This document shows, piece after piece, positions 4,194 through 35,343 of a DNA stretch of 35,343 nucleotides (the first letter of the stretch is position 1; each line of letters begins with the position of its first letter). The notes under the pieces are model-generated. The model saw only the letters and a list, made by a program, of their open reading frames with translations. It had not been told where the DNA came from and did no database searches. Origin of the DNA: Candidatus Rokubacteria bacterium RIFCSPLOWO2_02_FULL_73_56 (lineage in GTDB: Bacteria; Methylomirabilota; Methylomirabilia; Rokubacteriales; CSP1-6); NCBI GenBank assembly GCA_001788495.1, contig MGCF01000010.1, positions 1 through 35,343 on the forward strand, in the 5' to 3' direction. The translations under genes were made by a program, and so were the position numbers.

Positions 4194-5731
4194 CCCTCCG
4201 CGACCTCCTCGCCCGCGCGGCGCTCCGGCGACCCGAGGCCGAGGCCGTGGCGGACGGCGCCCGGCGGCTCACGTACGCCGAGCTCGCCGGGCGCGCCGCG
4301 GCGGTGGCCGCGGGCCTGGCGCGCCTCGGGGTCGGCCGGCGCGACCGCGTCGTGCTCGCGCTCAAGAACCGGCTCGAGCACGTCGTCGCGTACTGGGCGC
4401 TCCAGCACCTGGGGGGCGTGCCGACGCCCGCGAACTTCCGCCTGGCGGCCGGCGAGATGCAGTACGTCCTGGAGGACTCCGGCGCGCGGGTGGTGCTCTT
4501 CGAGGACGCCACGGCGCCGGCCGTCCTCGAGGCCGCGCGCGGCACCGCGGCGCGCCTCGTGTACGCGGGCGACCGCCCGCCGCCGGGCGCGCTCGCCTTC
4601 GACGAGCTGGCCGCGCGTGGGGCCGCGGGCGCCCTCGCGCCCCCCGCGGAGAGTGACCTCTCCCTCATCCTCTACACCTCGGGGACGACCGGCCGGCCCA
4701 AGGGCGTCCCGCGCACGCACCGGAACCACTACGCGGGCGCGCTCGCCCACGTCGTCCAGTGCGGGTACACCTGGGGCGAGCGGACGCTCGGCGTCATGCC
4801 GCTCTACCACACGATGGGGATCCACTCGCTCACGAGCATGGCGGCCGTCAACGGCTGCTTCGTCTGCCAGGCCGACTGGTCCGCCGCCGGCGCGCTCGCG
4901 CTCGTCGCCGCCGAGCGGCTGACCGCCCTCTACCTCATCCCGACGCTCTTCTGGGAGCTCGTCCACGCGCCGGAGCTCGCCCGGACCGACGTGGGCTCGG
5001 TGCGCAAGCTCGCCTACGCGGGCGCGCCCATGCTCGTGCCGCTCACCGAGGCGTGCGCCAAGGCGTTCCGCCCCGACGTGTTCGTGAACCACTACGGCTC
5101 GACCGAGATCTACACGTTCTCGATCTGCCCCGACGTCCGTGGGAAGCCCGGCTGCGCGGGCCGCGCGGGCGTGCACGGCGAGCTGCGCGTCGTGGTGGCG
5201 AGCCCCGAGCGCCGCGTCGGGCCCGCCGAGGTCGTGCCGCCCGGGACCCCGGGCGAGATCATCGCGAGCCTCGCCTCCGACGAGGCGTTCGCGGGTTACT
5301 GGAACCGGCCCGACGCGGACGCGAAGGCGCTGCGCGAGGGCTGGTACTTCACCGGCGACATGGGCTCCCGGGACGCCGAGGGCGACCTCTGGGTGGCGGG
5401 CCGCGTCGACGACATGATCATCAGCGGCGGCGAGAACATCCACCCGGTCGAGGTCGAGGACGTCCTCGCGCGGCACCCCCAGGTCGCGGACGTCGCGGTG
5501 ATCGGCGAGCCCGACGAGAAGTGGGGCGAGCGCGTCGTCGCCTTCGTCGTCCCGCGCGCGGCCGGGCTCGCCGCCGAGGCGCTCGACCGGCATTGCCGCG
5601 AGAGCGGCGACCTCGCGAGCTTCAAGCGCCCGCGCCGCTTCGTGTTCGTCCGGGAGATCCCCAAGACGGCCTCGGGCAAGATCCTGCGACGGCTGCTCCG
5701 CGACGGCCGGTACACGGAGGTCCGCTCATGA
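4190..5731 (+). CDS. Aryl-CoA ligase of the 4-chlorobenzoate-CoA ligase type
   Basis: This is a 513-residue adenylate-forming ligase with P-loop LYTSGTTGRPKG starting at residue 161, MPLYHTMG, STE, a hinge segment GRVDDMIISGGENIHP, and the C-terminal catalytic lysine in PKTASGKILRR. The stretches ANFRLAAGEMQYVL and KRPRRFVF resemble 4-chlorobenzoate- and related aryl-CoA ligases rather than fatty-acid ligases (recognition from memory). It would form an aryl-CoA plus AMP and PPi in the cytoplasm. The GTG start at 4190 overlaps the preceding stop as GTGA, and MTLRDLLARAALRRPEA is a typical start. The ATG of the enoyl-CoA hydratase overlaps its stop. It could supply 4-hydroxybenzoyl-CoA to the reductase encoded 21 kb downstream, but its nearer partners argue for a different substrate. 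Confidence 0.87.
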   Translation: MTLRDLLARAALRRPEAEAVADGARRLTYAELAGRAAAVAAGLARLGVGRRDRVVLALKNRLEHVVAYWALQHLGGVPTPANFRLAAGEMQYVLEDSGARVVLFEDATAPAVLEAARGTAARLVYAGDRPPPGALAFDELAARGAAGALAPPAESDLSLILYTSGTTGRPKGVPRTHRNHYAGALAHVVQCGYTWGERTLGVMPLYHTMGIHSLTSMAAVNGCFVCQADWSAAGALALVAAERLTALYLIPTLFWELVHAPELARTDVGSVRKLAYAGAPMLVPLTEACAKAFRPDVFVNHYGSTEIYTFSICPDVRGKPGCAGRAGVHGELRVVVASPERRVGPAEVVPPGTPGEIIASLASDEAFAGYWNRPDADAKALREGWYFTGDMGSRDAEGDLWVAGRVDDMIISGGENIHPVEVEDVLARHPQVADVAVIGEPDEKWGERVVAFVVPRAAGLAAEALDRHCRESGDLASFKRPRRFVFVREIPKTASGKILRRLLRDGRYTEVRS

Positions 5732-6495
5732 GCGAGTTTCTGCGCGTGGAGAGGAAGGGCGCCGTCGCGACGCTCTGGATCGACCGCCAGGCGAAGATGA
5801 ACACGATGACCGTGGCGATGCGCAACGAGTTCCCGGGCATCTTCGGGGGACTCGAGGCCGACGACGCCGTGCGCGTGGTCGTCGTCCGCGGCGCCGGCGG
5901 CAAGGCGTTCAGCGCCGGCGGCGACGTGGCCGAGTTCCTCACGCTCGCGCCGGCGGACCTCGAGCGGTGGGGCGACACGCTGACCTCCGCCGAGCGGTGC
6001 CGGAAGCCGGTGATCGCCGCGATCGACGGGTTCGCGATGGGCGCCGGGCTCGAGCTGGCGGTGGCGTGCGACTTCCGCGTCGCGACCCGGCGCTCCGAGT
6101 TCGCCTTCCCCGAGGTCCGGCTCGGGATGATCCCCGGCAGCGGCGGCACCCAGCGGGCCCTGCGCCTGATGGGCATGACGCGCGCGAAGCTGTTCATGAT
6201 GACGGGCCGGCGGATTTCGGCGGAGCAGGCCGAGGCGTGGGGGCTGATCACGCAGGCGGTCGCCGACGCCGGGCTGGACACGGCCGTCGACGCGCTCGCG
6301 GCGGAGCTCGCCGAGCGCCCCGCGCTCGCGCTCCGGACGCTGAAGCTCGTGCTGGACCGCGGCGCCGACGCGCCGCTCGAGACCGCGCTCGAGCTCGAGC
6401 GCAAGGCCTACGCGTGGCTCCGCTCGACGCACGACTACGCGGAGGGCGTGACGGCCTTCCTCGAGAAGCGTCCCCCGGGGTACACAGGGAGGTAG
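5728..6495 (+). CDS. Enoyl-CoA hydratase/isomerase (crotonase) family protein
   Basis: The 255-residue protein is full length for a single-domain crotonase. The oxyanion-hole segment KAFSAGGDVAEF is at about 59-70. Two acidic residues align with the catalytic glutamates of enoyl-CoA hydratase: E109 in GAGLELAVACD and E129 in FPEVRLGMIPGSGGTQR. It therefore probably hydrates a 2-enoyl-CoA (or a cyclic enoyl-CoA) formed after ligation of the imported acid. The ATG at 5728 overlaps the ligase stop as ATGA, so translation is coupled to the ligase and the two probably act in sequence. The FLEKRPPxYxGR ending is common in the family. Confidence 0.9.
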   Translation: MSEFLRVERKGAVATLWIDRQAKMNTMTVAMRNEFPGIFGGLEADDAVRVVVVRGAGGKAFSAGGDVAEFLTLAPADLERWGDTLTSAERCRKPVIAAIDGFAMGAGLELAVACDFRVATRRSEFAFPEVRLGMIPGSGGTQRALRLMGMTRAKLFMMTGRRISAEQAEAWGLITQAVADAGLDTAVDALAAELAERPALALRTLKLVLDRGADAPLETALELERKAYAWLRSTHDYAEGVTAFLEKRPPGYTGR

Positions 6496-10315: not shown

Positions 10316-10794
10316 CGCGTCACGCGATCAGCGTGAGCGTCAACGGCGCGCCGCGCACGGCGACGGTGGACGCGCGCCTGAGCCTGCTCGACTGCCTGCG
10401 CGGGGAGTGGGGGCTCACCGGCACGCACGCCGGGTGCGAGCACGGTGTCTGCGGCGCGTGCACCGTGCTGCTCGACGGCGAGCCCGTGCGGAGCTGCCTC
10501 CTCCTCGCGGTCCAGGCCGCCGGCGCCCGGGTCACGACGATCGAGGGGCTCGCGCCGGCCGAGGACCTCCACCCGGTGCAGCAGGGGTTCTGGGAGTGCC
10601 ACGGGCTCCAGTGCGGGTTCTGCACGCCGGGCATGGTCCTCACGGCGGTGGACCTGCTCGCGCGCGTGCCCGATCCGAGCGAGGCCGAGATCCGCGCGGC
10701 GCTCGCGGGCAACCTCTGCATGTGCACCGGCTACGAGAACATCGTGCGCGCCGTGCGCTGGGCGGCCGCGCGCGCGCGGGAGGCGCGCGCGTGA
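10312..10794 (+). CDS. Molybdenum hydroxylase small subunit, two [2Fe-2S] clusters
   Basis: The 160-residue protein is a xanthine-dehydrogenase-family iron-sulfur subunit (CoxS/HcrC type). An N-terminal plant-ferredoxin fold binds the first cluster with C42, C47, C50 and C62. The helical C-terminal domain binds the second with C101, C104, C136 and C138 (QCGFCTPG and CMCTG). It passes electrons from the molybdenum site of the large subunit. The start ATG overlaps the amidohydrolase stop (ATGA), and the large subunit begins as GTGA on its own stop, so the pair is translated in a coupled, equimolar way. No FAD-subunit gene adjoins it. Confidence 0.93.
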   Translation: MTRHAISVSVNGAPRTATVDARLSLLDCLRGEWGLTGTHAGCEHGVCGACTVLLDGEPVRSCLLLAVQAAGARVTTIEGLAPAEDLHPVQQGFWECHGLQCGFCTPGMVLTAVDLLARVPDPSEAEIRAALAGNLCMCTGYENIVRAVRWAAARAREARA

Positions 10795-13184
10795 GCGACC
10801 ACGCGGCGCCCACCGGGTGGGTCGGCCGGCCGCTCAAGCGTCTCGAGGACCCGCGCTTCCTCCGGGGCCGCGCGACGTACATCGACGACCTCGCGCTGCC
10901 GGGGCTGCTCCACGTCGCGATGCTGCGGAGCCCCCATGCCCACGCGCGCATCCAGCGCCTCGACGCGAGCGCCGCGGCCGCCCTGCCGGGCGTGGCCGCC
11001 GTGCTCACCGGCGAGGACGTCGCGCGCGCGATGCCGCCGCTCCGCCCGCTCATCCCGATCCCGAACCCGCCGCGGACCTACCCGCTCGCGGTCGGCCGCG
11101 TGCGCTACGTCGGCGAGCCCCTCGCGGCGGTCGCCGCGTGCGACCGCGCGACGGCGGAGGACGCCGTCGAGCTGATCCGCGCGGAGTACGAGCGGCTGCC
11201 CGCGGTGGTGGATCCCGAGCGCGCGCTCGCGCCCGACGCGCCCGTGCTCTTCGAGGAGATGGGGAGCAACGTGCTCTGGCACGACACGTTCGTCTACGGC
11301 GACGTGGACGGCGCCTTCGCGGCCGCGCGCCACGTGGTCCGCGAGCGCTTCACGATCCATCGCTACGTCTCGACCGCGCTCGAGACGTTCGGCGTGATCG
11401 CCCAGGTCGAGCCCGGGACCGGCCTCGTCACGATCTGGAGCAACGACCAGCGCCCCGGCCTCACGAGCGGCGTGGTGGCGGCGGCGCTCGGCGTCCCGCA
11501 GAACCGGCTGCGGCTGCTCGCGCTCGACATCGGCGGCGGCTTCGGCAACAAGCGGAAGGCGCCGTACCTGATCCTGGCGGCGCTGCTCGCGCGCGCGACC
11601 GGCCGGCCCGTGAAGTACGTGGAGGACCGCCGCGAGAACCTCGCGGCGCTCGCGCACGCGGCGAACGGCGTGATGGAGGCGGCGCTCGCGCTCGACGGCG
11701 ACGGGCGCTTCCTGGCGATCGCGCTCCGCGACGTCGTGGACGAGGGCGCGAACCTCCAGAACCCGACGCTGCACAGCCTGCTGAAGCTCGGCAACATCGT
11801 GAACTGCTACCGGATCGGCGCCGTCCGCTTCGAGGCGTACTCGGTGCTGACCACCAAGTGTCCGTCGGGCGCCAACCGCGGCATCGGCAAGCCGGCGATG
11901 TGCTTCGCGATCGAGCGCCTGGTGGACCTCGCGGCGCGCCGGCTCGGGCGCGACCCCGCGGACCTCCGCCTGGCGAACTTCATCCAGCCCTCGGAGCTCC
12001 CGTGGGAGACGCCGGTGGGCGCCTCGTACGACAGCGGCGACTTCCCCGAGACGCTGCGTCGCGCGCTCGCGCTCGCCGACTACGAGGGGCTGCGCGCGGC
12101 GCAGGCCGCGGCGCGGCGCGAGGGGCGCCTGCTGGGCATCGGCATCGCCGCGGCCATCGAGCCGGGCACCTCGAACCTGTCGTCCTACATGCTCGCGACC
12201 GGCACGGGCGGCACCTCGGGCGTGGGCGAGGCCGCGCTCGTGCGCGTCGAGCTCGACGGCAGCGTGCGCGTGGCGACCGGCAACGTCGCGAGCGGCCAGG
12301 GCTACCCGACCGTGGTCGCGCAGATCGTCGCCGACGAGCTCGGCGTCACGCCGCCGGACGTCGTCGTGAGCCCGTGGTTCGACTCGCACGAGAACCCGTG
12401 GATGTTCTCCTCCGGCAGCTTCTCGAACAAGTTCTCGGGCACCGACACCGGTGCGATCGTCGGCGCGGCGCGCGCGGTGCGCGACAAGATCCTGGCGCTC
12501 GCGGCGCACCTGCTCGAGGCGGCGCCGGCCGACCTCGAGCTCCGCGACGGCGCGGCCGCCGTCCGCGGCGCGCCGGACCGGCGCGTGACGCTCGCCCAGG
12601 TGGCGAGCGTGGCCTACCGGGACCTGCTCGCGCTCCCGCCCGGCGCGGCCGGCGGACTCGAGGCGCGGTACTACTACGTCCACCCCGCGGCGACCCGGCC
12701 CGACGCGGCCCGGCGCGTCGGGGTCCAGCTCACGTTCTCGAACTCGGCGCACGTCGTGGCGGTGGAGCTGGACCGCGCGACCGGCGCGCTCCGCTTCCTC
12801 GCGTACGCGATCGCCCACGACTGCGGGCGCGAGATCAACCCGCTGCTGGTCGAGGGGATGGTCCACGGCTCGACGGCCCACGGGATCGGCGCGACGCTGC
12901 TCGAGGAGTTCGTGTACGACGACGAGGGCCAGCTGCTCACGACGACGTTCCTGGACTACCTGAAGCCGACGGCCCTGGACGTGCCGCCGTTCCGCGTCGC
13001 GGCGCTCGAGTCGCCGACGCCACGCACCGCGCTCGGCGCCAAGGGGGTGGGCGAGGGCGGCGCGATCCCCTCGCTCGCCGCCATCGCCAACGCGGTGGAG
13101 GACGCGCTCGCGCCCCTCGGCGTCACGCTCCCGCGGCTGCCCCTGACCCCGGAGCGCCTCTGGGAGGCCATCCGCCGTGCCTGA
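10791..13184 (+). CDS. Molybdenum hydroxylase large subunit, xanthine dehydrogenase family
   Basis: The 797-residue protein is a complete molybdopterin-binding subunit. It starts with GRPLKRLEDPRFLRGRATYIDDL, has the DIGGGFGNKRK molybdopterin loop and an SGQGYPTVVAQI segment, and ends with GAKGVGEGGAIPS carrying the expected catalytic glutamate. It should hydroxylate a ring or side-chain carbon using water. Two usual motifs differ: the region normally reading roughly 'MEPRGAVA' is ALETFGVIA, and the loop corresponding to the Cox AYxCSFR/AYRGAGR motif is GANRGIGKP. This places it outside true CO dehydrogenase, with a substrate I cannot name. There is no TAT-like leader. The 8-nt overlap with the TRAP permease gene suggests the enzyme acts on the imported compound. 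Confidence 0.88.
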   Translation: MSDHAAPTGWVGRPLKRLEDPRFLRGRATYIDDLALPGLLHVAMLRSPHAHARIQRLDASAAAALPGVAAVLTGEDVARAMPPLRPLIPIPNPPRTYPLAVGRVRYVGEPLAAVAACDRATAEDAVELIRAEYERLPAVVDPERALAPDAPVLFEEMGSNVLWHDTFVYGDVDGAFAAARHVVRERFTIHRYVSTALETFGVIAQVEPGTGLVTIWSNDQRPGLTSGVVAAALGVPQNRLRLLALDIGGGFGNKRKAPYLILAALLARATGRPVKYVEDRRENLAALAHAANGVMEAALALDGDGRFLAIALRDVVDEGANLQNPTLHSLLKLGNIVNCYRIGAVRFEAYSVLTTKCPSGANRGIGKPAMCFAIERLVDLAARRLGRDPADLRLANFIQPSELPWETPVGASYDSGDFPETLRRALALADYEGLRAAQAAARREGRLLGIGIAAAIEPGTSNLSSYMLATGTGGTSGVGEAALVRVELDGSVRVATGNVASGQGYPTVVAQIVADELGVTPPDVVVSPWFDSHENPWMFSSGSFSNKFSGTDTGAIVGAARAVRDKILALAAHLLEAAPADLELRDGAAAVRGAPDRRVTLAQVASVAYRDLLALPPGAAGGLEARYYYVHPAATRPDAARRVGVQLTFSNSAHVVAVELDRATGALRFLAYAIAHDCGREINPLLVEGMVHGSTAHGIGATLLEEFVYDDEGQLLTTTFLDYLKPTALDVPPFRVAALESPTPRTALGAKGVGEGGAIPSLAAIANAVEDALAPLGVTLPRLPLTPERLWEAIRRA

Positions 13185-15092: not shown

Positions 15093-16583
15093 ATGGGCTT
15101 CATGGACATGCGCGAATGGATGCGGCGCCTCGACAAGGAAGGGGAGCTCCGGCGGATCACCGCCGAGGTCGACTGGGACCGCGAGCTCGGCGCGGTCACG
15201 CGCCGAGCGCTCGAGCGGAAGGGCCCCGCGCTCCTCTTCGAGCGGATCACCGGGTACACGGCCGGGCGCTGCACGAAGCTCCTGACGAGCGCGCTCGGCA
15301 GCCGCGCGCGCCTGGCGCTCGCGCTCGGGTTTCCGCGGGACGCGTCGAACGCGGACCTGGTCCGGCACGTGATGCAGAAGAACCGCGAGACGCTCCCGCC
15401 CCGGCTCGTGGCCGCGGGGCCCGTGAAGGACGTGGTCCTGCGCGGCGCGCAGATCGACCAGACCGAGTTCCCCGTCCCCAGGTGGCACTACCTCGAGGGC
15501 GGGCGCTACATCCACACGTTCTCCGGGATCGTCACGCGGGACCCCGAAACGCGCGTGATGAACGTCGGCATCTACCGCGGGATGATCGGCCAGCGGGACA
15601 CGACGCCGTTCCTGCTGATCAAGGGCGGGCAGCACTGGGGCGCGCACTTCCTGAAGTACGCCGAGCGCGGCGAGCCGATGCCCGTCGCGTGTGTGATCGG
15701 CTGGGACCCGATCATGCCGTTCCTGGCGGGCTCGCCGATTCCCGCGGGCGTCTGCGAGTGGGACGTGATGGGCGCCTATCGCGGCGAGCCGGCCGAGCTG
15801 GTGCGCTGCGAGACGGTGGACCTCGAGGTCCCGGCGAGCGCCGAGATCGTGGTCGAGGGGTTCATCAGCGACGACCCGGCGACGTACGAGACCGAGGGGC
15901 CGTTCGGCGAGTTCACGGGCTACGTGTCCGACCTCCCGACGCCCCGGCCCACGATGCGGATCTCCTGCATCACGCACCGGCGCGACCCGGTCTTCCGCGG
16001 CAGCCTCGAGGGCACGCTGCCCGGCTCGTACAGCGAGAACAGCGTGATGTCCTCGGTGCAGCGCGCGGCGATCGCCTGGAACATCCTCACGCAGGCGGGG
16101 ATCCCGGGCGTCCTCGACGTCTTCGTCCCGCCGATCACGAACGGCGTGAACATCGTCGTCCAGATCAAGAAGGCCTACCAGGGCCAGCCCAAGCAGATCG
16201 CCGCCGCGCTCTGGGGAAACAGCGCCGCCCAGTACCGCTACAAGCACGTGACGGTCGTCGAGGAGGACATCGACCCCTCGTCCTACGAGCAGGTGGACTG
16301 GGCCTTCGCCCACCGCGTGAACGCGGGCGAGGACGGGCTCGTGATCTTCCCGGGCATCTTCGGCTCGCCGATCGACCCGAGCACGCCGCTCGAGGACCGC
16401 AACGTCGCGCAGCTCGGCACCGGCCTCTGGAACCGGGTGCTGATCGACGCCACGCGCTCGTGGCGGTTCGCCCGGCGGCCGGAGTGGGGGGGCGAGCGCT
16501 TCCCGCGCACGGTGCGGCCGGCGCCCGAGGACGAGGCGCGCGTGCGCGCGCGCTGGCAGGAGCTGGGCCTCGGGGACCTCTAG
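15093..16583 (+). CDS. UbiD family prenylated-FMN-dependent decarboxylase
   Basis: The 496-residue protein is a full-length UbiD-type (de)carboxylase. Cofactor-site residues are visible as MNVGIYR (N157, R162) and as the catalytic acid pair in ETEGPFGEF (E268 and E273). With R162 this gives the E-R-E triad described for Fdc1 (R173, E277, E282 there). Late motifs [11 protein letters not shown] and an RFPRTVRP-like tail also fit. It removes or adds a carboxyl group on an aromatic or enoic acid using prenylated FMN. The flavin prenyltransferase UbiX needed to make the cofactor is not in the window. ATG 15093 is chosen with AGGGAGG 10 nt upstream. The 44-bp gap before it is the largest between neighbouring genes of this array, and I see no convincing promoter there. 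Confidence 0.9.
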
Positions 16584-25290: not shown

Positions 25291-26115
25291 CTAGGCGCGC
25301 GAGGCCCGATCGCACCGGGCCAGGAAGGCCAGCACCGCGCGGTTCCACGCCTCGGGCTGGTCCCGGTTGGCGAAGTGGCTGGCGGGGGAGAGGACCACGA
25401 GCTTCGCGCCGCGGATCCTCCGGCGCATCACCCGCATGGGCCCGAGCGAGGGGTCGCGGTCGCCGCCGAGCAGGAGCACCGGCATGCGCAGGCGCCCGAG
25501 CTCGCCGGTGATGTGGTCCATGGCGAGGAGCGCGCGCAGCGAGTTCGCGTAGCCGATGGGCGCGAGCTGCCGGTACTCGGCGTAGAACTCCGCCTTCGCC
25601 GCGGGGTCGAGGGCGAGCCGCTCGGCGACGTTCGGGTTCGCCTGCATCGCGTACTCGGCCATCGCGTCCATGCCTTGCGTGAGGGTGATCTCGATGGACC
25701 GGGCGCGCATCACCACGTTCTCCCAGGAGAGCGGCAGGCCCGCGGCCGAGGAGGAGTTGGTGACGACCAGCGAGCGCACCCGGGACGGGAAGCGGAGGGC
25801 GAAGCGCGTGGCGATGCCCGCGCCGAGCGAGAGCCCGCCCAGGTGCGCCCGGCGCAGCCCGAGGTGGTCGAGCACGGCCTTGAGGTCGAGCGCCCAGCGG
25901 CCGAACGAGTACCGGGCGGGGTCGGCCGGGCTGTCCGAGCGAGCGTGGCCCCGCGGCTCCCAGAGGACCAGGCGGTGCCGGGCGGCGAGGCCGGCGACGT
26001 TGACGTCCCACATCCCGACGTTGCCGCCGATCCCGTAGGCCAACACGAGCGGCGTCCCCCGGCCGTGCTCCTCGTAGTAGAGGCGCACCCGGTCGTCGGT
26101 CCGGACGTACGGCAT
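25291..26115 (-). CDS. Alpha/beta hydrolase
   Basis: The 274-residue protein has the fold's standard order: VLAYGIGGNVGMWD with the oxyanion region, the nucleophile elbow GLSLGAG with the serine near residue 96, an acid in LLGGDRDPSLGP, and the catalytic histidine in SPASHFANRDQPEAWNRAVLAFL. Overall resemblance is to 3-oxoadipate enol-lactonase and related ester or lactone hydrolases, but the substrate is undecided. The ATG at 26113-26115 lacks an obvious ribosome site. It is divergent from the hcr/box operon across a 166-bp region and is followed by the sigma-54 regulator gene after 2 nt. A CoA-thioester or lactone hydrolase serving the aromatic pathway is plausible inference. Confidence 0.85.
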   Translation of the reverse strand: MPYVRTDDRVRLYYEEHGRGTPLVLAYGIGGNVGMWDVNVAGLAARHRLVLWEPRGHARSDSPADPARYSFGRWALDLKAVLDHLGLRRAHLGGLSLGAGIATRFALRFPSRVRSLVVTNSSSAAGLPLSWENVVMRARSIEITLTQGMDAMAEYAMQANPNVAERLALDPAAKAEFYAEYRQLAPIGYANSLRALLAMDHITGELGRLRMPVLLLGGDRDPSLGPMRVMRRRIRGAKLVVLSPASHFANRDQPEAWNRAVLAFLARCDRASRA

Positions 26116-26204
26116 GGCGCTATGTTACGACGCCGCACCCGATTTCGGGGTAGCTCTCCGGCGGGCGCGGGGGCGGCCGCCGCCGCCGCGCCCGTCCTCC
26201 CCGC

Positions 26205-26234
26205 TTGACAGCCTTCCACGAAATTCAGTATTTT
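26205..26234 (+). promoter_or_regulatory. Sigma-70-type promoter of the hcr/box operon
   Basis: TTGACA (26205-26210, a perfect -35) is followed after 18 bp by TATTTT (26229-26234) inside a short AT-rich island that stands out from the GC-rich surroundings. The predicted start near 26241 gives a leader of about 40 nt to the ATG at 26282. Confidence 0.6.
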
Positions 26235-26249
26235 TGAAGCCTGATTCAG
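26214..26249 (+). promoter_or_regulatory. Operator-like cluster of phased TTC/GAA half-sites
   Basis: The promoter carries TTC-CAC-GAA (26214-26222), TTCA (224-227 of the 26 kb block), TGAA (235-238) and the palindrome CTGA-T-TCAG (26241-26249). ATTCAG recurs at 26223 and 26244, 21 bp or two helical turns apart. The sites run from the -35 to the start point, as expected for a repressor. The XRE-cupin protein of the same operon is the obvious candidate to bind it (inference). Confidence 0.42.
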
Positions 26250-26281
26250 CCGGGATGAACCCCCAGACGGTGGAGCCGCGG

Positions 26282-26776
26282 ATGAAGGCACGCATCGCCC
26301 TGAGCGTCAACGACCAGCCGCACGAGCTGCTGGTGCCGGTCCACAAGACCCTGCTCGAGGTGCTGCGCGAGGACCTCGGGCTGACCGGGACGAAGCACGG
26401 CTGCGAGCTCGGCGAGTGCGGCACCTGCACCGTCCTCGTGGACGGCGAGCCCGTCCTCTCGTGCCTCGCCCTGCCGGTCGAGCTCGAGGGGCGGCGCATC
26501 ACCACGGTAGAGGGGCTGGCCGAGGGCGGGCGCCTGCACCCGCTCCAGCAGGCGTTCGCCGAGCTGGGGGCCGCCCAGTGCGGGTACTGCACGCCGGGCG
26601 TGCTGCTCACCGCCCAGGCCCTGCTCGCCGCCGAGGCCCTGCCGCCGCGCGACCGGATCCGGGAGGCGCTCGCCGGCAACCTCTGCCGCTGCACGGGCTA
26701 CACGAAGATCCTCGACGCCGTCGAGCTCGCGGCGCTCCGCCTGTCGCGCGGCGCCCGGGCCGGAGCCGGACGCTGA
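26282..26776 (+). CDS. hcrC: 4-Hydroxybenzoyl-CoA reductase gamma subunit, two [2Fe-2S] clusters
   Basis: This is a 164-residue iron-sulfur subunit of the xanthine dehydrogenase family. The plant-type cluster uses C41, C46, C49 and C61 (CELGECGTC...SC). The second cluster uses C100, C103, C135 and C137 (QCGYCTPG, CRCTG). It relays electrons between the FAD/4Fe-4S subunit and the molybdenum site during reductive removal of the ring hydroxyl of 4-hydroxybenzoyl-CoA. ATG 26282 is preferred over ATG 26255 because GGAG at 26272-26275 lies 6 nt upstream and the family usually starts a few residues before the LSVND-like strand. Its identity as HcrC rests mainly on the two following genes. Confidence 0.88.
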   Translation: MKARIALSVNDQPHELLVPVHKTLLEVLREDLGLTGTKHGCELGECGTCTVLVDGEPVLSCLALPVELEGRRITTVEGLAEGGRLHPLQQAFAELGAAQCGYCTPGVLLTAQALLAAEALPPRDRIREALAGNLCRCTGYTKILDAVELAALRLSRGARAGAGR

Positions 26777-29223
26777 GCGCCGGGGGCAAGCACGAGTTCT
26801 CGGTCATCGGCCAGCCGCTGCCGAAGCTCGACGCCTGGGCGAAGGTGACCGGCGAGACCCGCTACGCCGACGACCTGGTCCTGCCGCGCATGGCCCACGC
26901 CAAGCTGCTGCGCTCCTCGCACGCCCACGCGCGGATCCGCGGCATCGACACGACGCGGGCCCGCGCCCTGCCCGGGGTGCTCGCCGTCATCACCGGGGCC
27001 GACCTGCCGCGCGTCCGGTTCGGCATCCTGCCGGTCTCGCAGGACGAGGAGGCGCTCTGCACGGAGAAGGTGCGGATGGTCGGCGACGCGGTCGCTGCGG
27101 TGGCGGCGGTGGACGAGGAGACGGCCGAGCAGGCGTGCCGGCTGATCGACGTCGCGTGGGAGCCGCTCCCGGCGCTGATGTCCATCGAGGAGTCGCTCGC
27201 GCACCCCGAGGTGCGCATCCACGAGTACGGCGACGGGCCCAACGTGCACAAGAGCGTGGCGCTCCAGTTCGGCGACGTCGAGGCGGCGTTCGCCCGCGCC
27301 GACCTGGTCCGCGAGGACACCTTCTACTACGAGGGCAGCACGCACCTGCCGCTGGAGCAGCACGCGGCCGTGGCGCACTGGGGCCCCGACGGCAAGCTGA
27401 CGCTCTGGTCCTCGACCCAGACGCCGCACTACGTCCACCGGCTGCTCGCCAAGATCCTCGACGTGCCGGCCGCCCACGTCCGCGTGGTCGCCGCGCCGGT
27501 CGGCGGCGGCTTCGGCGGCAAGCTCGATCCCTTCGCCCACGAGATCGCGGCCTGCCACCTCTCGCGCCTCACCGGCCGGCCGGTCAAGATCGCGCTCACG
27601 CGCGAGGAGGTCTTCTACGTCCACCGCGGCCGCCACCCCGTGCTGATGTGGCTCAAGACGGGCTTCACCCGCCAGGGCGACATCACCGGCTGCCACATCA
27701 AGACGTGGCTCGACGGCGGCGCCTACGGCTCGTACGGCGTGGCCTCGACCTTCTACACGGGCGTCATCAACCCGGTGAGCTACAAGATGCCCGTGTACAA
27801 GTTCGAGGGCGCGCGCATCTTCACCAACAAGCCGCCGTGCGGGCCCAAGCGCGGCCACGGCACCCCGCAGCCGCGCTTCGCGCTCGAGGTCCAGCTCGAC
27901 CGAGCGGCCGAGCAGCTCGGGCTCGACCCGGCCGCGATGCGCCGCCGCATCGTGACCGAGCCGTTCACGAAGACCGCCAACCACCTCACCGTGACGACGA
28001 CCGGCCTCGCCGAGTGCATCGACCGGGTCGTCGAGGCCTCGGGCTGGCGGACCAAGTGGCGTGGCTGGCGGGCCGGCGAGGCCCCCTCCGAAAAAAAGCG
28101 CGGCGTGGGGCTCGCCTGCTCCGCCTACATGACGGGCGCCGGCACGGCCATCTACTGGAACGCGATGCCGCACTCGGGCGTCGTCCTGCGCGCCGACCGG
28201 AGCGGGGCGGTCGCGCTCCTGTGCGGCGCGACCGACATCGGCCAGGGCTCGGACTCGATCCTCGCCTCCTTCGCCGCCGAGGTCCTCGGGATCGCGTTGA
28301 AGGACGTGCACGTGCACCCGGCCGACACGACGCTCACGCCGGTGGACCTCGGCTCGTACTCCTCGCGCGTCACGCTCATGTGCGGCATGGCGACGATCCA
28401 GGCGGCCGAGCGGCTGCGCGGCGCGATCTTCGAGGCCGTCGCCAAGAAGCTCGAGGTCGCGCCCGGAGCGCTCGTCGCGCGGGGCGGCAGGGTCGGCGTG
28501 CCGGAGGACTGGGACACGGCCGTCCCCTTCGCGCAGGCGGTCGAGCTCGGCGAGGCGATGCACGGCGTGCTCGCCTTCCCGGGCTCCTACGCGCCGCCCC
28601 GGCGGGCGGGCAAGTACAAGGGCGGCGGCGTGGGGCCGTCGCCCTGCTACTCGTACACGGCGAGCGTCGTGGACCTGAGCGTGGACGAGGAGACAGGCGA
28701 GATCGAGCTGCACGACGTCTGGATCGCCCACGACGTGGGGCGCGCGCTCAACCCGCTGCTCGTCGAGGGCCAGGTCGAGGGCTCCGTCTACATGGGGATC
28801 GGCGAGGCGCTGATGGAGGAGCAGGTGTTCCGCAAGGGCCTCCACAAGACGCCCTCGATGCTCGACTACAAGAGCCCGACCACGCTCGAGACGCCCGACA
28901 TCCACACCATCCTCGTCGAGACGGACGACCCCGAGGGCCCGTTCGGCGCCAAGGAGGCGGGGCAGGGGCCGCTCCTGCCGATCATGCCCGCCATCGCGAA
29001 CGCCGTGTACCACGCGGTCGGCGTGCGGATCGACGAGGTGCCGATCACGCCCGACAAGATCCTCCGGGCCCTCGAGGCGCGGCGCCGGGGCAAGCCCGCG
29101 CGCGTGGGGCCCGAGAAGCTTCCGCTGTTCGCCTTCAAGGAGCCGGTCGTCGTCGAGTCGGCGTTCGGCCAGCCGGCCGACGCCGTCGTCGTGCGGCCGT
29201 TCCAGGCGGAGCGCCTGGCATGA
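26773..29223 (+). CDS. hcrA: 4-Hydroxybenzoyl-CoA reductase alpha (molybdopterin) subunit, apparent CTG start
   Basis: The 816-residue molybdopterin subunit begins SVIGQPLPKLDAWAKVTGETRYADDL. It has APVGGGFGGKLDPF (241-254) and a CGPKRGHGTPQPRFALE segment from C356 that I recognise as typical of 4-hydroxybenzoyl-CoA reductases. It ends with GAKEAGQGPLLP, where E728 should be the catalytic glutamate. It removes the para-hydroxyl, giving benzoyl-CoA. No ATG, GTG or TTG exists in frame between the upstream stop region and the conserved KVTG core. The only sensible start is CTG 26773, which overlaps the hcrC stop as CTGA and has GGAG 7 nt upstream. A run of seven A at about 28091 keeps frame. A sequence error at the start is the main alternative. 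Confidence 0.88.
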   Translation: MSAGGKHEFSVIGQPLPKLDAWAKVTGETRYADDLVLPRMAHAKLLRSSHAHARIRGIDTTRARALPGVLAVITGADLPRVRFGILPVSQDEEALCTEKVRMVGDAVAAVAAVDEETAEQACRLIDVAWEPLPALMSIEESLAHPEVRIHEYGDGPNVHKSVALQFGDVEAAFARADLVREDTFYYEGSTHLPLEQHAAVAHWGPDGKLTLWSSTQTPHYVHRLLAKILDVPAAHVRVVAAPVGGGFGGKLDPFAHEIAACHLSRLTGRPVKIALTREEVFYVHRGRHPVLMWLKTGFTRQGDITGCHIKTWLDGGAYGSYGVASTFYTGVINPVSYKMPVYKFEGARIFTNKPPCGPKRGHGTPQPRFALEVQLDRAAEQLGLDPAAMRRRIVTEPFTKTANHLTVTTTGLAECIDRVVEASGWRTKWRGWRAGEAPSEKKRGVGLACSAYMTGAGTAIYWNAMPHSGVVLRADRSGAVALLCGATDIGQGSDSILASFAAEVLGIALKDVHVHPADTTLTPVDLGSYSSRVTLMCGMATIQAAERLRGAIFEAVAKKLEVAPGALVARGGRVGVPEDWDTAVPFAQAVELGEAMHGVLAFPGSYAPPRRAGKYKGGGVGPSPCYSYTASVVDLSVDEETGEIELHDVWIAHDVGRALNPLLVEGQVEGSVYMGIGEALMEEQVFRKGLHKTPSMLDYKSPTTLETPDIHTILVETDDPEGPFGAKEAGQGPLLPIMPAIANAVYHAVGVRIDEVPITPDKILRALEARRRGKPARVGPEKLPLFAFKEPVVVESAFGQPADAVVVRPFQAERLA

Positions 29224-30236
29224 TGCGCCTGCCGCCGTTCACCTACGTCGCGGCGCGGACGCTCGCCGAGGCCGCCGCCGCGCTCGCCGAGCACGGGGCC
29301 GACGCGATGCTCGTCGCGGGCGGCACCGACCTCTACCCGAACATGAAGCGCCGCCAGTTCGAGCCGAAGGTCCTCGTCGGCCTGCGTGGGATCCGGGAGC
29401 TCGCGGGGGTCCGCGGCTCGGCGCGCGAGGGCCTGACGCTCGGCGCGGGCACGACGCTCGCCGCCGTGGCGGCGCACCGCGAGATCGTCACGCACTATCC
29501 GGCGCTCGCCACGGCCGCGGGGCTCGTCTCCTCGCCGCAGCTCCGCAACATGGGGACGCTCGGCGGCAACGTGTGCGTGGACACGCGCTGCAACTACTAC
29601 AACCAGTCCTTCGAGTGGCGGCGCGCGATCGGCTTCTGCATGAAGAAGGACGGCGACGTCTGCCTGGTCGCGCCCGGCAGCCCGCGCTGCTGGGCCGTGT
29701 CGTCGTCGGACACCGCGCCCGCGCTCGTGAGCCTCGGCGCCGCGGTGCGGCTGGTGGGCGGCGGCGGCGAGCGCACCGTGCCGCTCGCGGCGCTCTACCA
29801 TGACGACGGCATCGAGTATCTCGCCAAGCGGCGTGACGAGATCGTGACCGACATCCTGCTGCCGCCGGTGGACGGCTGGCGCTCCGCGTACCTGAAGCTG
29901 CGCCGGCGCGGCTCGTTCGACTTCCCGGTGCTGGGCGTGGCGGTGGCGGCCCGGCTCGAGGGCGCCGTCGTGCGCGACGCGCGCATCGTCCTGGGCGCCG
30001 TCGCCTCGCGGCCGCGGCTGGCCGAGAAGGCCGCGGCGGCGCTCGTCGGCCGGCGCCTGACGCCCGAGCTGATCGCGGCGGTCGCCGAGCTGGCGGCCGG
30101 GCCGTCGAAGCCGCTCGACAACACGGACTTCACCCACCCGTACCGCAAGAAGGTCACGCGCGTGTTCGTGGCGCGGGCCCTGCGCGCCCTCGGCGGCCTC
30201 GGCGACGCGGGGCGCGCGGTGGAGGCGATCGCGTGA
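29220..30236 (+). CDS. hcrB: 4-Hydroxybenzoyl-CoA reductase beta subunit with FAD and [4Fe-4S] sites
   Basis: This is a 338-residue FAD-binding subunit. FAD motifs are AGGTDLYPNMK (33-43) and GTLGGNV (112-118). Right after these sits an insertion with C124, C140, C148 and C157. Their spacing of 16, 8 and 9 is the same as that of the four cysteines (122, 138, 146, 155) reported to bind the additional [4Fe-4S] cluster of the Thauera aromatica enzyme. That cluster distinguishes 4-hydroxybenzoyl-CoA reductases from other xanthine dehydrogenase relatives and lets electrons enter from a low-potential donor such as ferredoxin. ATG 29220 (ATGA overlap with hcrA) has GGAG 8 nt upstream, while ATG 29223 is possible. 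It ends in a GTGA overlap with the regulator gene. Confidence 0.93.
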   Translation: MMRLPPFTYVAARTLAEAAAALAEHGADAMLVAGGTDLYPNMKRRQFEPKVLVGLRGIRELAGVRGSAREGLTLGAGTTLAAVAAHREIVTHYPALATAAGLVSSPQLRNMGTLGGNVCVDTRCNYYNQSFEWRRAIGFCMKKDGDVCLVAPGSPRCWAVSSSDTAPALVSLGAAVRLVGGGGERTVPLAALYHDDGIEYLAKRRDEIVTDILLPPVDGWRSAYLKLRRRGSFDFPVLGVAVAARLEGAVVRDARIVLGAVASRPRLAEKAAAALVGRRLTPELIAAVAELAAGPSKPLDNTDFTHPYRKKVTRVFVARALRALGGLGDAGRAVEAIA

Positions 30237-30781
30237 CGGCGCTCGGCGCGCGCATCAAGGCCCTGCGCGGCGAGCGGGGGCTCCAGCAGCGCCAGCTCGC
30301 CGAGAAGGCGGGCCTCACGCCGAGCATGGTGTCGCAGATCGAGTCGGGGCGCCTGACGCCGTCGCTGCACACGCTCGGCCGGGTCGCGGCGGCCCTCGGC
30401 GTGCCGATCGCGACGCTCTTCGACGGCCAGCCCGCGGGCAGCATCGTCGTGTCGCGCGCGAAGGACTACCCCGTGGTCTCGTTCGACGGCTCCTCCGAGC
30501 GGTGGGCCGTGCTGGGGGCGGGGCTCTTCCAGGGCAAGATCCGCGCGGTCGTCTCGACCCTCGGCCCGCGCTCGCGCGGCGTCACGACCGAGAAGGTCGT
30601 GATCAGGCCGGGGCAGATGAAGCTCTTCTACGTGCTCGCGGGCCGGGTGGGCCTCCACTACAATGGCGACCGCCACGTGCTCGAGGCGGGCGACAGCGCG
30701 CTGCTCGACGGCGGCACGCCGCACGGCTGGGAAAACCTCGGATCGAAGCCGGCCCAGGCGCTCTGGGTCATTCTGGGATAG
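30233..30781 (+). CDS. XRE-family transcriptional regulator with C-terminal cupin domain
   Basis: This is a 182-residue protein. The N-terminal helix-turn-helix (about 5-62) contains LGARIKALRGERGLQQRQLAEKAG and SMVSQIESGRLTPSLHTL. The C-terminal cupin (about 115-178) contains KLFYVLAGRVGLHYNGDRHVLEAGDSALLDGG and TPHGWENLG, a small-molecule-binding barrel. It is co-translated with hcrB (GTGA) and sits 4 nt before boxC, so it lies in the middle of the operon it most likely controls. The known box-pathway regulator BoxR has an XRE domain fused to a shikimate-kinase-like domain. This protein has a cupin instead, implying a different effector site. Ligand is unknown; benzoyl-CoA or 4-hydroxybenzoyl-CoA are reasonable guesses. 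Confidence 0.9.
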   Translation: MTALGARIKALRGERGLQQRQLAEKAGLTPSMVSQIESGRLTPSLHTLGRVAAALGVPIATLFDGQPAGSIVVSRAKDYPVVSFDGSSERWAVLGAGLFQGKIRAVVSTLGPRSRGVTTEKVVIRPGQMKLFYVLAGRVGLHYNGDRHVLEAGDSALLDGGTPHGWENLGSKPAQALWVILG

Positions 30782-30785
30782 GGCC

Positions 30786-32458
30786 ATGGCGGACGAGAGC
30801 GAACGCGTGCAGGTGGAGTTCCGGACGGAGCCGTCGCGCTACAAGCACTGGCGGCTCGCCGTCGACCCACCGGTGGCCCGGCTCACGCTGGACGTCAAGG
30901 AGGACGGCGGGCTCCGGCCCGGGTACGAGCTCAAGCTGAACTCCTACGACCTCGGCGTGGACATCGAGCTCTACGACGCCGTGCAGCGGCTCCGGTTCGA
31001 GCACCCCGGGGTCGGCGCGGTCGTCGTGACCTCGGGCAAGGAGCGCATCTTCTGCGCGGGCGCCAACATCCGCATGCTCTCGCAGTCCGCGCACGGCTGG
31101 AAGGTGAACTTCTGCAAGTTCACCAACGAGACGCGCAACGCGATCGAGGAGGCGACGGCCGAGTCGAGGCAGGTCTACCTGACGGCCGTCAACGGCCCGT
31201 GCGCGGGCGGCGGCTACGAGCTGGCGCTCGCGACCGACTGGATCGTCATGGCCGACGACGCCAACACGGCGGTGTCGCTCCCCGAGGTGCCGCTGCTCGC
31301 GGTCCTTCCGGGCACCGGCGGGCTCACCCGGCTCGTGGACAAGCGCCGCGTGCGCCGCGACCGCGCCGACTTCTTCTGCACGACCGAGGAGGGCGTCAAG
31401 GGCCAGCGCGCCGTCGAGTGGGGGCTGGTGGACGAGGTCGTGCCGCGCTCGCGCCTGGACGAGCTCGTGCGCCAGCGGGCGCGCGAGTTCGCCGCGCGGA
31501 CCGATCGGCCGGCCGGCGCGCGGGGTATCGCGCTCGCGCCGCTCGCACGGACGCTCGCGGGCGACGAGGTCCGCTACGGCACGCTCGCGTGCCGGATCGA
31601 CCGCGGCCGCGCCGTGGCCGAGATCACGGTGCGGGGGCCGGAGGTGCCGCCCCCCGCGGACCTCGCGGCGCTCCACGCGCTCGGCGTCGCGTTCTGGCCG
31701 CTCGCGCTCGCCCGCGAGCTCGACGACCTGATCCTGCACTTGCGGACCAACGAGCCGGAGATCGGGATCTGGGTCGTCAGGACCGCCGGCCGCGCCGACC
31801 TGGTCGAGGCGCACGACGGCGCGCTCGCCGCCCACGGCGGCGACTGGCTCGTGCGCGAGATCCGTCTCTACCTCCGGCGCACGCTCAAGCGGCTCGACGT
31901 CTCGTCGCGCTCGGTCTTCGCGCTCGTCGAGCCGGGCTCGTGCTTCACGGGCACGCTGCTCGAGCTCGTCCTGGCCGCGGACCGCTCGTACATGCTCACC
32001 GGCGGGCGGCAGGGCGACGCGCGGCCGCCGGCGGCGGTGCGGCTCACCGGGATGAACTTCGGCCCGTACCCGATGGTGAACGGCCTCACGCGCCTCGCGA
32101 GCCGGTTCCTGGCCGAGCCCGGCCGCACGGACAAGCTCCGCGCCCGGATCGGCGAGGACCTGGACGCGGCGGCGGCCGCGGAGGCGGGCCTCGTCACGTT
32201 CACGCCCGACGACATCGACTGGGACGACGAGGTTCGCCTCGCGCTCGAGGAGCGCGCGGCCTTCTCGCCCGACGCGCTGACCGGGATGGAGGCATCGCTC
32301 CGGTTCGGCGGGCCCGAGACCCTCGAGAGCAAGATCTTCGCGCGGCTGTCGGCGTGGCAGAACTGGATCTTCCAGCGCCCCAACGCGGTCGGCCCGAAGG
32401 GCGCCCTCCAGGTGTACGGCAGCGGCGAGCGCAGCGAGTTCGACCGCAGGAGGGTGTG

Positions 32459-32459
<1 letters not shown>
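30786..32459 (+). CDS. boxC: Benzoyl-CoA-dihydrodiol lyase (2,3-epoxybenzoyl-CoA ring-cleaving dihydrolase)
   Basis: The 557-residue protein matches BoxC in length and sequence. RYKHWRLAVDPPVARLTLDV opens it, LRPGYELKLNSYDLGVDIELYDA follows at about 43-65, and a crotonase core has oxyanion segments ERIFCAGANIRML (86-98) and NGPCAGGGYELALATDW (136-152) plus SLPEVPLLAVLPGTGGL with E167. A second C-terminal crotonase-like half includes EPGSCFTGTLLELVLAADR. BoxC converts 2,3-epoxybenzoyl-CoA with two waters into 3,4-dehydroadipyl-CoA semialdehyde and formate, cleaving the ring without oxygen. It is directly followed by boxB in a TGATG overlap, so substrate producer and consumer are translated together. 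BoxD-type aldehyde dehydrogenase for the product is not in the window. Confidence 0.95.
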
Positions 32460-33877
<1,418 letters not shown>

Positions 33878-33911
33878 CGCAGTGCCGGAGCCCTCGACCG
33901 AGGAGGCAACG

Positions 33912-34367
33912 ATGCCCAGGGTGATCAAGCCGAAGAGCTTCGGGGCGCCGCTCGGGATGTACTCGCACGGGATGGCGGCGCCGGCGGGGGAGCTGGTGGT
34001 CGTGGCCGGCCAGGTGGGCGTCGGCGCGGGTGGGCAGGTCGCGGGCGGCGACGTCGGCGCCCAGACCCGGCAGGCGCTCGAGAACGTCCACGCGGTCCTG
34101 GCGGCCGCCGGCTGCGACTGGGGCGACGTCGTGCGACTCCAGACCTTCCTGGTGAGCGCGGACGACATCCCGGGGTTCATGCGGGCCCGGCAGGAGGCCT
34201 TCCCGGGCTACTTCCCCGACGGGGCCTACCCGCCGAACACGCTGCTCGTGGTGAGCCGCCTCGTGCGGCCCGAGCTCCGGGTCGAGATCGAGGCCATGGC
34301 GGTGCGCCGTCCGCGGCGGTCCGCCGCCCGCCCGCGGGTGCAGCCCAGAAAGCGAGCGCGCCGATGA
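33912..34367 (+). CDS. RidA (YjgF/YER057c) family protein
   Basis: The 151-residue protein has the RidA trimer fold motifs: GMYSHGMAAPAGELVVVAGQVG at the start, LENVHAVLAAAGCDWGDVVRLQTFL in the middle, and a C-terminal VVSRLVRPELRVEIEAMAV that retains the arginine and glutamate of the active pocket. RidA proteins hydrolyse reactive enamines/imines, and some relatives act in aromatic pathways. ATG 33912 is chosen over GTG 33882 because AGGAGG at 33901-33906 is 5 nt upstream. An unusual extra tail of about 20 residues is strongly basic (RRPRRSAARP and QPRKRARR). It overlaps the benzoate-CoA ligase start (ATGA). I infer a clean-up or deacylation role next to the epoxide-forming steps. Confidence 0.87.
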   Translation: MPRVIKPKSFGAPLGMYSHGMAAPAGELVVVAGQVGVGAGGQVAGGDVGAQTRQALENVHAVLAAAGCDWGDVVRLQTFLVSADDIPGFMRARQEAFPGYFPDGAYPPNTLLVVSRLVRPELRVEIEAMAVRRPRRSAARPRVQPRKRARR

Positions 34368-35343
34368 ACGCCGCCGACGTCCTGCCCCAGCAGTTCAACG
34401 TCGTGACCCACTTCGTGGACCGCCACGTGGCCGAGGGGCGGGGCGGCGCGCCCGCGTTCCACTACGAGGAGCGCACGCTGACCTACGCCGACGTCCAGGA
34501 GCTCGCCAACCGCAGCGGCAACGCGCTCCGCGAGCTCGGCGTCGGCATGGAGGACCGCGTCCTCCTGATCTGCCTGGACGCGCCCGAGTTCCTCGGGACG
34601 TTCTGGGGCGCGCTCAAGATCGGCGCCGTGCCGGTCCCGGTCAACACGATGATGCGGAGCGCCGACTACCTCTACTTCCTGAACGACAGCCGCGCGAAGG
34701 TGGCCGTCGTGTCGGCGCCGCTGCTCGCGGAGGCCGCGCCCGCGCTCGTGGAGGCGACGTACCTGAGGCACGTGCTCATCGCCGGGGGCAGCCCCGGGCA
34801 GTTCCTGTCCTGGGAGGAGCGCCTCGGCCGCGCCGCGGCGTCGCTCGAGGCCGCGCCGACCTCGCGGGACGACGCGGCCTTCTGGCTCTACTCGTCCGGC
34901 TCCACCGGCTTCCCGAAGGGCGCCGTGCACCTGCAGCACGACATGGTCGTCTGCGCCGACACCTACGCCAAGCGGGTGCTCGGCCTGCGACCGACGGACC
35001 GCGTCTTCTCCGCGGCCAAGCTCTTCTTCGCCTACGGCCTCGGCAACGCCGGCTACTTCCCGATGGCCGTCGGCGCGCAGAGCGTGCTCTACCCGCACCG
35101 GCCCATGCCCGAGCCGGTCTTCGAGGTGATCGCGCGCTACCGGCCGACGATCTTCTTCGGCGTGCCGACGCTCTACGCCGCGATGCTCGCGGTGAAGGAG
35201 GCGGCGGCGCGCTTCGACACCTCCTCGCTCCGCCTCTGCGTGTCCGCGGGCGAGGCGCTGCCCGAGGAGATCTACACGCGCTGGCGGGAGCGCTTCGGCG
35301 TCGAGATCATCGACGGGATCGGCACGACCGAGATCCTGCACAT
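34364..35343 (+). CDS. Benzoate-CoA ligase family protein, N-terminal 326 residues
   Basis: The gene runs off the window end without a stop. The visible part is an adenylate-forming ligase of the benzoate-CoA ligase (BadA/BclA) type. It opens with FNVVTHFVDRHVAEGRG and carries PVPVNTMMRSADYLYFLNDSRA at about 91-112, the P-loop YSSGSTGFPKG at 176-186, AKLFFAYGLGN, and SAGEALPEEIY before GTTEILHI. These match benzoate- and hydroxybenzoate-CoA ligases closely. It would make benzoyl-CoA (for BoxB) or 4-hydroxybenzoyl-CoA (for Hcr) from the acid, ATP and CoA. The ATG overlaps the ridA stop. The hinge and C-terminal domain are missing only because the window ends. Confidence 0.92.
   Translation, partial: MNAADVLPQQFNVVTHFVDRHVAEGRGGAPAFHYEERTLTYADVQELANRSGNALRELGVGMEDRVLLICLDAPEFLGTFWGALKIGAVPVPVNTMMRSADYLYFLNDSRAKVAVVSAPLLAEAAPALVEATYLRHVLIAGGSPGQFLSWEERLGRAAASLEAAPTSRDDAAFWLYSSGSTGFPKGAVHLQHDMVVCADTYAKRVLGLRPTDRVFSAAKLFFAYGLGNAGYFPMAVGAQSVLYPHRPMPEPVFEVIARYRPTIFFGVPTLYAAMLAVKEAAARFDTSSLRLCVSAGEALPEEIYTRWRERFGVEIIDGIGTTEILH

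Follow-up and report, generated by a model that had tools for sequence, protein, structure and literature searches.

A hybrid aryl-coenzyme A (CoA) route, in which dehydroxylation by a 4-hydroxybenzoyl-CoA reductase (4-HBCR)-like enzyme (Hcr) would feed ring opening by BoxB and BoxC, is probably encoded at positions 26282–35343 of the window. The window is the 35,343-nucleotide (nt) stretch of DNA analysed here from Candidatus Rokubacteria bacterium RIFCSPLOWO2_02_FULL_73_56; it belongs to a contig of 50,458 bp from a metagenome-assembled genome (MAG) of 4.05 Mb and 94% completeness. Eight genes run in the same direction in the order hcrC-hcrA-hcrB-regulator-boxC-boxB-ridA-bcl. That Hcr and box are functionally coupled is very likely, and the probability of the whole route is lower. 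The findings that count for Hcr feeding BoxB are the linkage in Rokubacteriales and other lineages, the promoter and putative operator at hcrC only, the genome-level co-occurrence, the conserved cysteines and metal ligands, the surroundings of a related locus (L090), the absence of PobA, and cytochrome c oxidase in the same genome. Families were judged by scores on curated equivalog models and their cut-offs (NCBIfam; TIGR03193, TIGR03194 and TIGR03195 for the Hcr subunits). The features are as follows.

26205..26234, + strand: sigma-70-like promoter, TTGACA-18-TATTTT, upstream of hcrC; sole promoter-like match
26224..26259, no strand assigned: tandem dyad, putative operator, TTHA-N7-TDAA-N6-TTHA-N7-TDAA; dyad centres 21 bp apart, overlapping the promoter
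26282..26776, + strand: hcrC; TIGR03193 179 bits, below the cut-off of 257.8; Pfam Fer2 and Fer2_2
26773..29223, + strand: hcrA, molybdenum-binding alpha subunit; TIGR03194 825 bits, cut-off 994.6
29220..30236, + strand: hcrB, flavin adenine dinucleotide-binding beta subunit with a 4-HBCR-type [4Fe-4S] insertion; TIGR03195 302 bits, cut-off 404.6
30233..30781, + strand: XRE-type helix-turn-helix (HTH) and cupin transcriptional regulator; Pfam HTH_3 and Cupin_2
30786..32459, + strand: boxC, predicted 2,3-epoxybenzoyl-CoA dihydrolase; TIGR03222 916 bits, cut-off 712
32459..33877, + strand: boxB, predicted di-iron benzoyl-CoA 2,3-epoxidase; TIGR03225 863 bits, cut-off 499
33882 (GTG) or 33912 (ATG)..34367, + strand: ridA-like enamine/imine deaminase; Pfam Ribonuc_L-PSP
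34364..35343, + strand, running past the window end: bcl, aryl (benzoate)-CoA ligase; TIGR02262 373.8 bits, cut-off 375.25

In the proposed route, 4-hydroxybenzoate would be converted to 4-hydroxybenzoyl-CoA by Bcl or by a PaaK-like ligase encoded downstream, and HcrCAB would reductively remove the para-hydroxyl group to give benzoyl-CoA. BoxB, with a reductase other than BoxA, would use O2 to form 2,3-epoxybenzoyl-CoA, and BoxC would open the ring to 3,4-dehydroadipyl-CoA semialdehyde and formate. Benzoate would enter one step later through Bcl. Every reaction is assigned from family membership, and we likewise infer the substrate of Hcr, what donates electrons to Hcr and BoxB, the oxygen tolerance of Hcr, and the pairing of regulator and operator.

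The eight genes are compactly arranged. Each of the seven junctions is an overlap of 1–4 nt or a gap not exceeding 34 nt. The hcrC/hcrA, hcrA/hcrB and hcrB/regulator junctions are 4-nt overlaps (CTGA, ATGA and GTGA), a 4-nt gap separates the regulator from boxC, boxC and boxB overlap by 1 nt (TGATG), boxB and ridA are 4 or 34 nt apart depending on the ridA start, and ridA overlaps bcl at ATGA. An earlier reading made from the sequence only had joined hcrC to bcl in one operon by overlaps or gaps below 35 nt, and this was borne out by the gene ends, the junctions, and the single promoter and operator. The natural start of hcrA lacks ATG, GTG and TTG; the CTG at 26773–26775, which overlaps the hcrC stop, reflects either the use of a rare start codon or an error in the sequence, and a same-genus relative has ATG. 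The TIGR02262 score of bcl covers only the N-terminal 326 aa, where the gene is cut. Just outside the window, bcl is interrupted by a 10-N scaffold gap (35344–35353), and its C-terminal part lies at 5437–5955 of locus L067. A frameshift or pseudogene was ruled out because the apparent frameshift in the open reading frame lists is this gap. A PaaK-like CoA ligase gene follows bcl (L067 5967–7232), and the operon seems to extend into it.

The promoter scan of 25900–35343 yielded the single match at hcrC, where 0.2 were expected, and no terminator-like site on the coding strand. TTGAC and TTCAGTATTTTT of this promoter are kept in relatives. Each of 26 loci, from about 20 genomes, contains the tandem dyad once, and wherever coordinates were compared it lies immediately upstream of hcrC. 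None is expected by chance in the window, and it is the sole site in the 4.05-Mb host genome even when one mismatch is allowed. The dyad was not found upstream of boxC; conserved promoter and operator are present at hcrC only, which supports one regulated unit from hcrC over separate hcr and box transcripts. A diverged form of the dyad lies upstream of several other operons. The regulator gene keeps its position in relatives, with 65–91% identity of the product, and this HTH-cupin protein probably binds the tandem dyad and controls the promoter. BoxR was rejected as an assignment for it: HTH and Cupin_2 domains were found, with no shikimate-kinase domain.

The arrangement is conserved. In Rokubacteriales, 45 genomes have BoxB over the cut-off, and 41 of these carry hcrB on the same contig, 1765–3043 bp away. 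In the remaining four (G011, G013, G021 and G045), contigs end within the cluster or next to it, and no separate box locus was found. A search for hcrABC within a few genes of boxBC had been suggested as a check, and the same order was indeed recovered throughout the Rokubacteriales. Since the gene order recurs in nearly all relatives, it does not reflect chance. Relatives that share the operon and carry a name belong to Candidatus Rokubacteria or Rokuibacteriota. Some homologous operons have ridA and others do not, and it is often missing where hcr and box remain.

Linkage was also found in other lineages and in other forms. A SAR324 MAG (L151) has the order boxC-boxB-hcrC-hcrA-hcrB, and the cluster adjoins genes for maleylacetoacetate isomerase and gentisate dioxygenase. 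Transfer of the whole operon is not supported here: besides the different gene order, the SAR324 BoxB shows 68% identity, and the HcrA is placed outside the Rokubacteria clade. In several relatives, boxC-boxB is replaced by genes for a single-domain enoyl-CoA hydratase and a BoxB paralogue, BoxB2, while hcrCAB and the ligase are kept; BoxB2-type Rokubacteriales loci also keep the regulator. BoxB2 has 370 aa, is about 40% identical to BoxB, and conserves all six ligand positions. BoxB2 with the hydratase may form a second ring epoxidase system. In a non-Rokubacterial family of Methylomirabilota (f9), hcrCAB lies near BoxB2 and the single-domain hydratase, and the Hcr comes from another branch of the tree. 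The BoxB2 loci are located as follows.

L071 4119–6027, L072 764–2683, L073 8792–10740 and L075 4956–6867; also in L129, L130 and L133

Beyond the class, the Hcr clade co-occurs with BoxB or its paralogue. Of 50 genomes from other phyla with an Hcr of this clade, BoxB was found in 16 and BoxB2 in a further 7. The resulting 23/50 compares with 14/293 for BoxB or BoxB2 in random non-class genomes (Fisher p ~5e-13), and within the random set alone the values are 4/7 Hcr-bearing versus 10/286 other genomes (p = 1e-4); both p-values are optimistic because the genomes are phylogenetically non-independent and many are incomplete. hcrCAB loci of the window type (L132–L190) were found in Chloroflexi, Acidobacteria, Gemmatimonadota, Actinobacteria, Myxococcota and others. 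A PaaK-like ligase gene adjoins hcr in 15 of the 59 non-class Hcr loci, which makes the PaaK-like ligase after bcl a candidate 4-hydroxybenzoate activator. Some of these hcrCAB loci also have a UbiD-looking gene, as judged by eye. One locus (L189), whose hcrAB genes resemble those found in Acidobacteria and relatives, comes from a contig of a public MAG under the name Klebsiella pneumoniae; mislabelling or contamination is probable.

The residues expected of both enzymes are conserved. Four cysteines of Thauera HcrB are, as we take it, ligands of an extra [4Fe-4S] cluster. The window HcrB has Cys124, 140, 148 and 157 aligned with 122, 138, 146 and 155 of PDB 1RM6_B, and they are invariant in an alignment that includes T. 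aromatica. Gln214, Tyr326 and the FGAKE motif of Thauera HcrA, which presumably matter for catalysis, are retained in HcrA. E120, E150, H153, D211, E240 and H243, which we take to be the di-iron ligands of BoxB, are all identical to those of Azoarcus BoxB. BoxB is over its cut-off and 69% identical to the Azoarcus protein (PDB 3PER), and the BoxC match, also over its cut-off, spans residues 10–557. The conserved HcrB cysteines and six BoxB ligands support the coupling of an Hcr-type dehydroxylase to BoxB and BoxC that had been proposed.

Several findings weigh against the hybrid route. The first is that a BoxB-type protein is missing from 27 of the 50 Hcr genomes outside the class, including the cultured Ktedonobacter, Thermogemmatispora and Thermosporothrix; therefore, the Hcr clade has uses beyond box. 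With hcr often beside a PaaK-like ligase gene in such genomes, Hcr and box could be two independent branches under one regulator, acting on different substrates with no benzoyl-CoA passed between them. We regard this as very unlikely, as the near-invariant linkage in Rokubacteriales, the SAR324 linkage in another order and the genome-level enrichment fit a shared flux better.

The assignment of the Hcr substrate is the second point. The best matches of HcrA and HcrB are the 4-HBCR models, HcrA by 270 bits over the next model, yet all three subunits score below the equivalog cut-offs. HcrC scores about the same on the xanthine dehydrogenase XdhC model as on the 4-HBCR model, and HcrA is only 42% identical to the characterised HcrA of T. 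aromatica. In a quick HcrA tree with long branches and few outgroups, the window clade is sister to Thauera plus L101 with 98–99% SH-aLRT support. For this reason we treat the proteins as a sister clade of 4-HBCR-like type and not as proven members, and reductive dehydroxylation of 4-hydroxybenzoyl-CoA by HcrCAB, as the sequence-only reading had it, agrees with the gene context and the conserved motifs but stays a prediction. A search of plasmids for close HcrB relatives returned only distant xanthine dehydrogenase-type matches below 60% identity.

These scores, together with the separation of the clade from Thauera, leave room for HcrCAB to supply the box enzymes with benzoyl-CoA from another para-substituted benzoyl-CoA, such as 4-amino- or halobenzoyl-CoA, or from several, with RidA handling an enamine or imine side product. 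Dehydroxylases of the xanthine oxidase family that act on other substrates exist (PMC12771579), and some of the operons include ridA. The idea that RidA proves an amino-aromatic substrate was rejected, as many operons lack it, often with hcr and box retained. L090, which branches near the base of the Hcr clade with an HcrA 58% identical, has hcrCAB beside genes resembling class I benzoyl-CoA reductase, with a benzoate-CoA ligase gene nearby; this context, the classical role of Hcr, supports benzoyl-CoA as the product. With Gln214, Tyr326 and FGAKE also conserved, a different para-substrate is rather unlikely, and 4-hydroxybenzoyl-CoA is preferred.

The third point is BoxA, which was found in none of 60 genomes, this one and 59 relatives. 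Among 26 BoxB genomes tested, BoxA was over the cut-off in only one, a gammaproteobacterium. The absence looks general in BoxB genomes outside Proteobacteria, where BoxB must then have another reductase. With BoxA missing, the route is not shown to be complete, and the description of a complete route from 4-hydroxybenzoate to ring cleavage went too far.

The fourth point is the presence of BcrC/BcrB-like genes on contig C23 of the same genome, which leaves some room for ring reduction. Hcr-made benzoyl-CoA could meet a facultative branch point, passing to BoxBC with O2 and to an ATP-dependent benzoyl-CoA reductase without it. BcrC-like matches were found in 18 of the 60 sampled genomes, and one relative has BcrC-B-A-D-like genes beside a molybdopterin oxidoreductase gene. 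All Bcr-like proteins fall below the benzoyl-CoA reductase cut-offs, the cluster in the own genome has no adjacent ATPase genes, and most relatives lack such genes, whereas hcr-box is nearly universal. We consider the branch point quite unlikely, and it would add to the hybrid route without replacing it. The genes on C23 (L191, 1–5461) encode a TetR-like regulator, BcrC- and BcrB-like proteins and a large protein. In the relative (L192, 391–7867), the genes include those for BcrA/D-like ATPases. Benzoyl-CoA reductase-like clusters of the L191/L192 type occur in about one third of the relatives. Cytochrome c oxidase is encoded on the same contig as the BcrC/BcrB-like genes, and PobA was found in none of the 60 genomes. 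It had been claimed that the route avoids both a hydroxylase and an ATP-costly ring reduction; the PobA result agrees with the first part, and the second was too strong in view of the genes on C23.

Three other genes of the window were recorded. A divergent alpha/beta hydrolase resembling PcaD is encoded at 25291–26115, adjoining hcrC, and L075 has a similar gene close to its operon. The other two, in the first half of the window, encode a CoxL-type molybdenum dehydrogenase (10791–13184) and a UbiD family decarboxylase with a relationship to phenylphosphate carboxylase beta (15093–16583).

The operon was compared with known systems. HcrABC of Thauera aromatica (PDB 1RM6, 1SB3) shares the three subunits, the four-cysteine [4Fe-4S] insertion in HcrB and the HcrA motifs. 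In addition to its lower identity, sister position and sub-cut-off scores, the window Hcr differs in being linked to a pathway that depends on O2 and not to benzoyl-CoA reductase. The box cluster of Azoarcus evansii (boxABC-bclA-boxR) is similar in BoxB and in the clustering of BoxC with a benzoate-CoA ligase family protein; however, the window operon has neither BoxA nor BoxR, and hcrCAB and the HTH-cupin regulator are added. The anaerobic 4-hydroxybenzoate route, from hcr to class I benzoyl-CoA reductase, has the same predicted first steps and is the arrangement seen in L090, whereas the predicted ring attack here is epoxidation with O2. A study of SAR324 reported a BoxB-BoxC-ligase cluster and, separately, 4-HBCR in SAR324 bins; its authors interpreted the latter as a side chain associated with tyrosine metabolism (PMC4782131). 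In contrast, hcr and box are adjacent in the SAR324 MAG described above, which is a different one. No description of an hcr-box hybrid route was found in the open-licence literature searched. Both halves are known, and their union is likely new.

Hcr is taught as part of anaerobic aromatic metabolism, and Ktedonobacteria are aerobes. The occurrence of the Hcr clade across many phyla, including cultured Ktedonobacteria, shows that its earlier attribution to anaerobic degraders was too narrow. A broader proposal, to which we give slightly less than even credence, is that a large clade of [4Fe-4S] molybdenum dehydroxylases spanning many phyla in O2-respiring bacteria delivers benzoyl-CoA to O2-dependent epoxidases, either BoxB without BoxA or BoxB2 with the single-domain hydratase. 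For bacteria of soil and groundwater, reductive dehydroxylation would then be a regular way into aerobic aryl-CoA catabolism.

Rokubacteria are a widespread uncultured lineage of soil and groundwater, for which the operon predicts a mixed route for 4-hydroxybenzoate and related plant aromatics. If the hybrid route is true, it raises the questions of how Hcr withstands low oxygen or makes use of it, and of what reduces BoxB without BoxA. hcr would be no marker of anaerobic degradation, which would change pathway calling in metagenomes. Furthermore, Rokubacteria would be predicted to use 4-hydroxybenzoate without a flavin hydroxylase, and Hcr would be a standard front end of an O2-dependent pathway in a major uncultured lineage.
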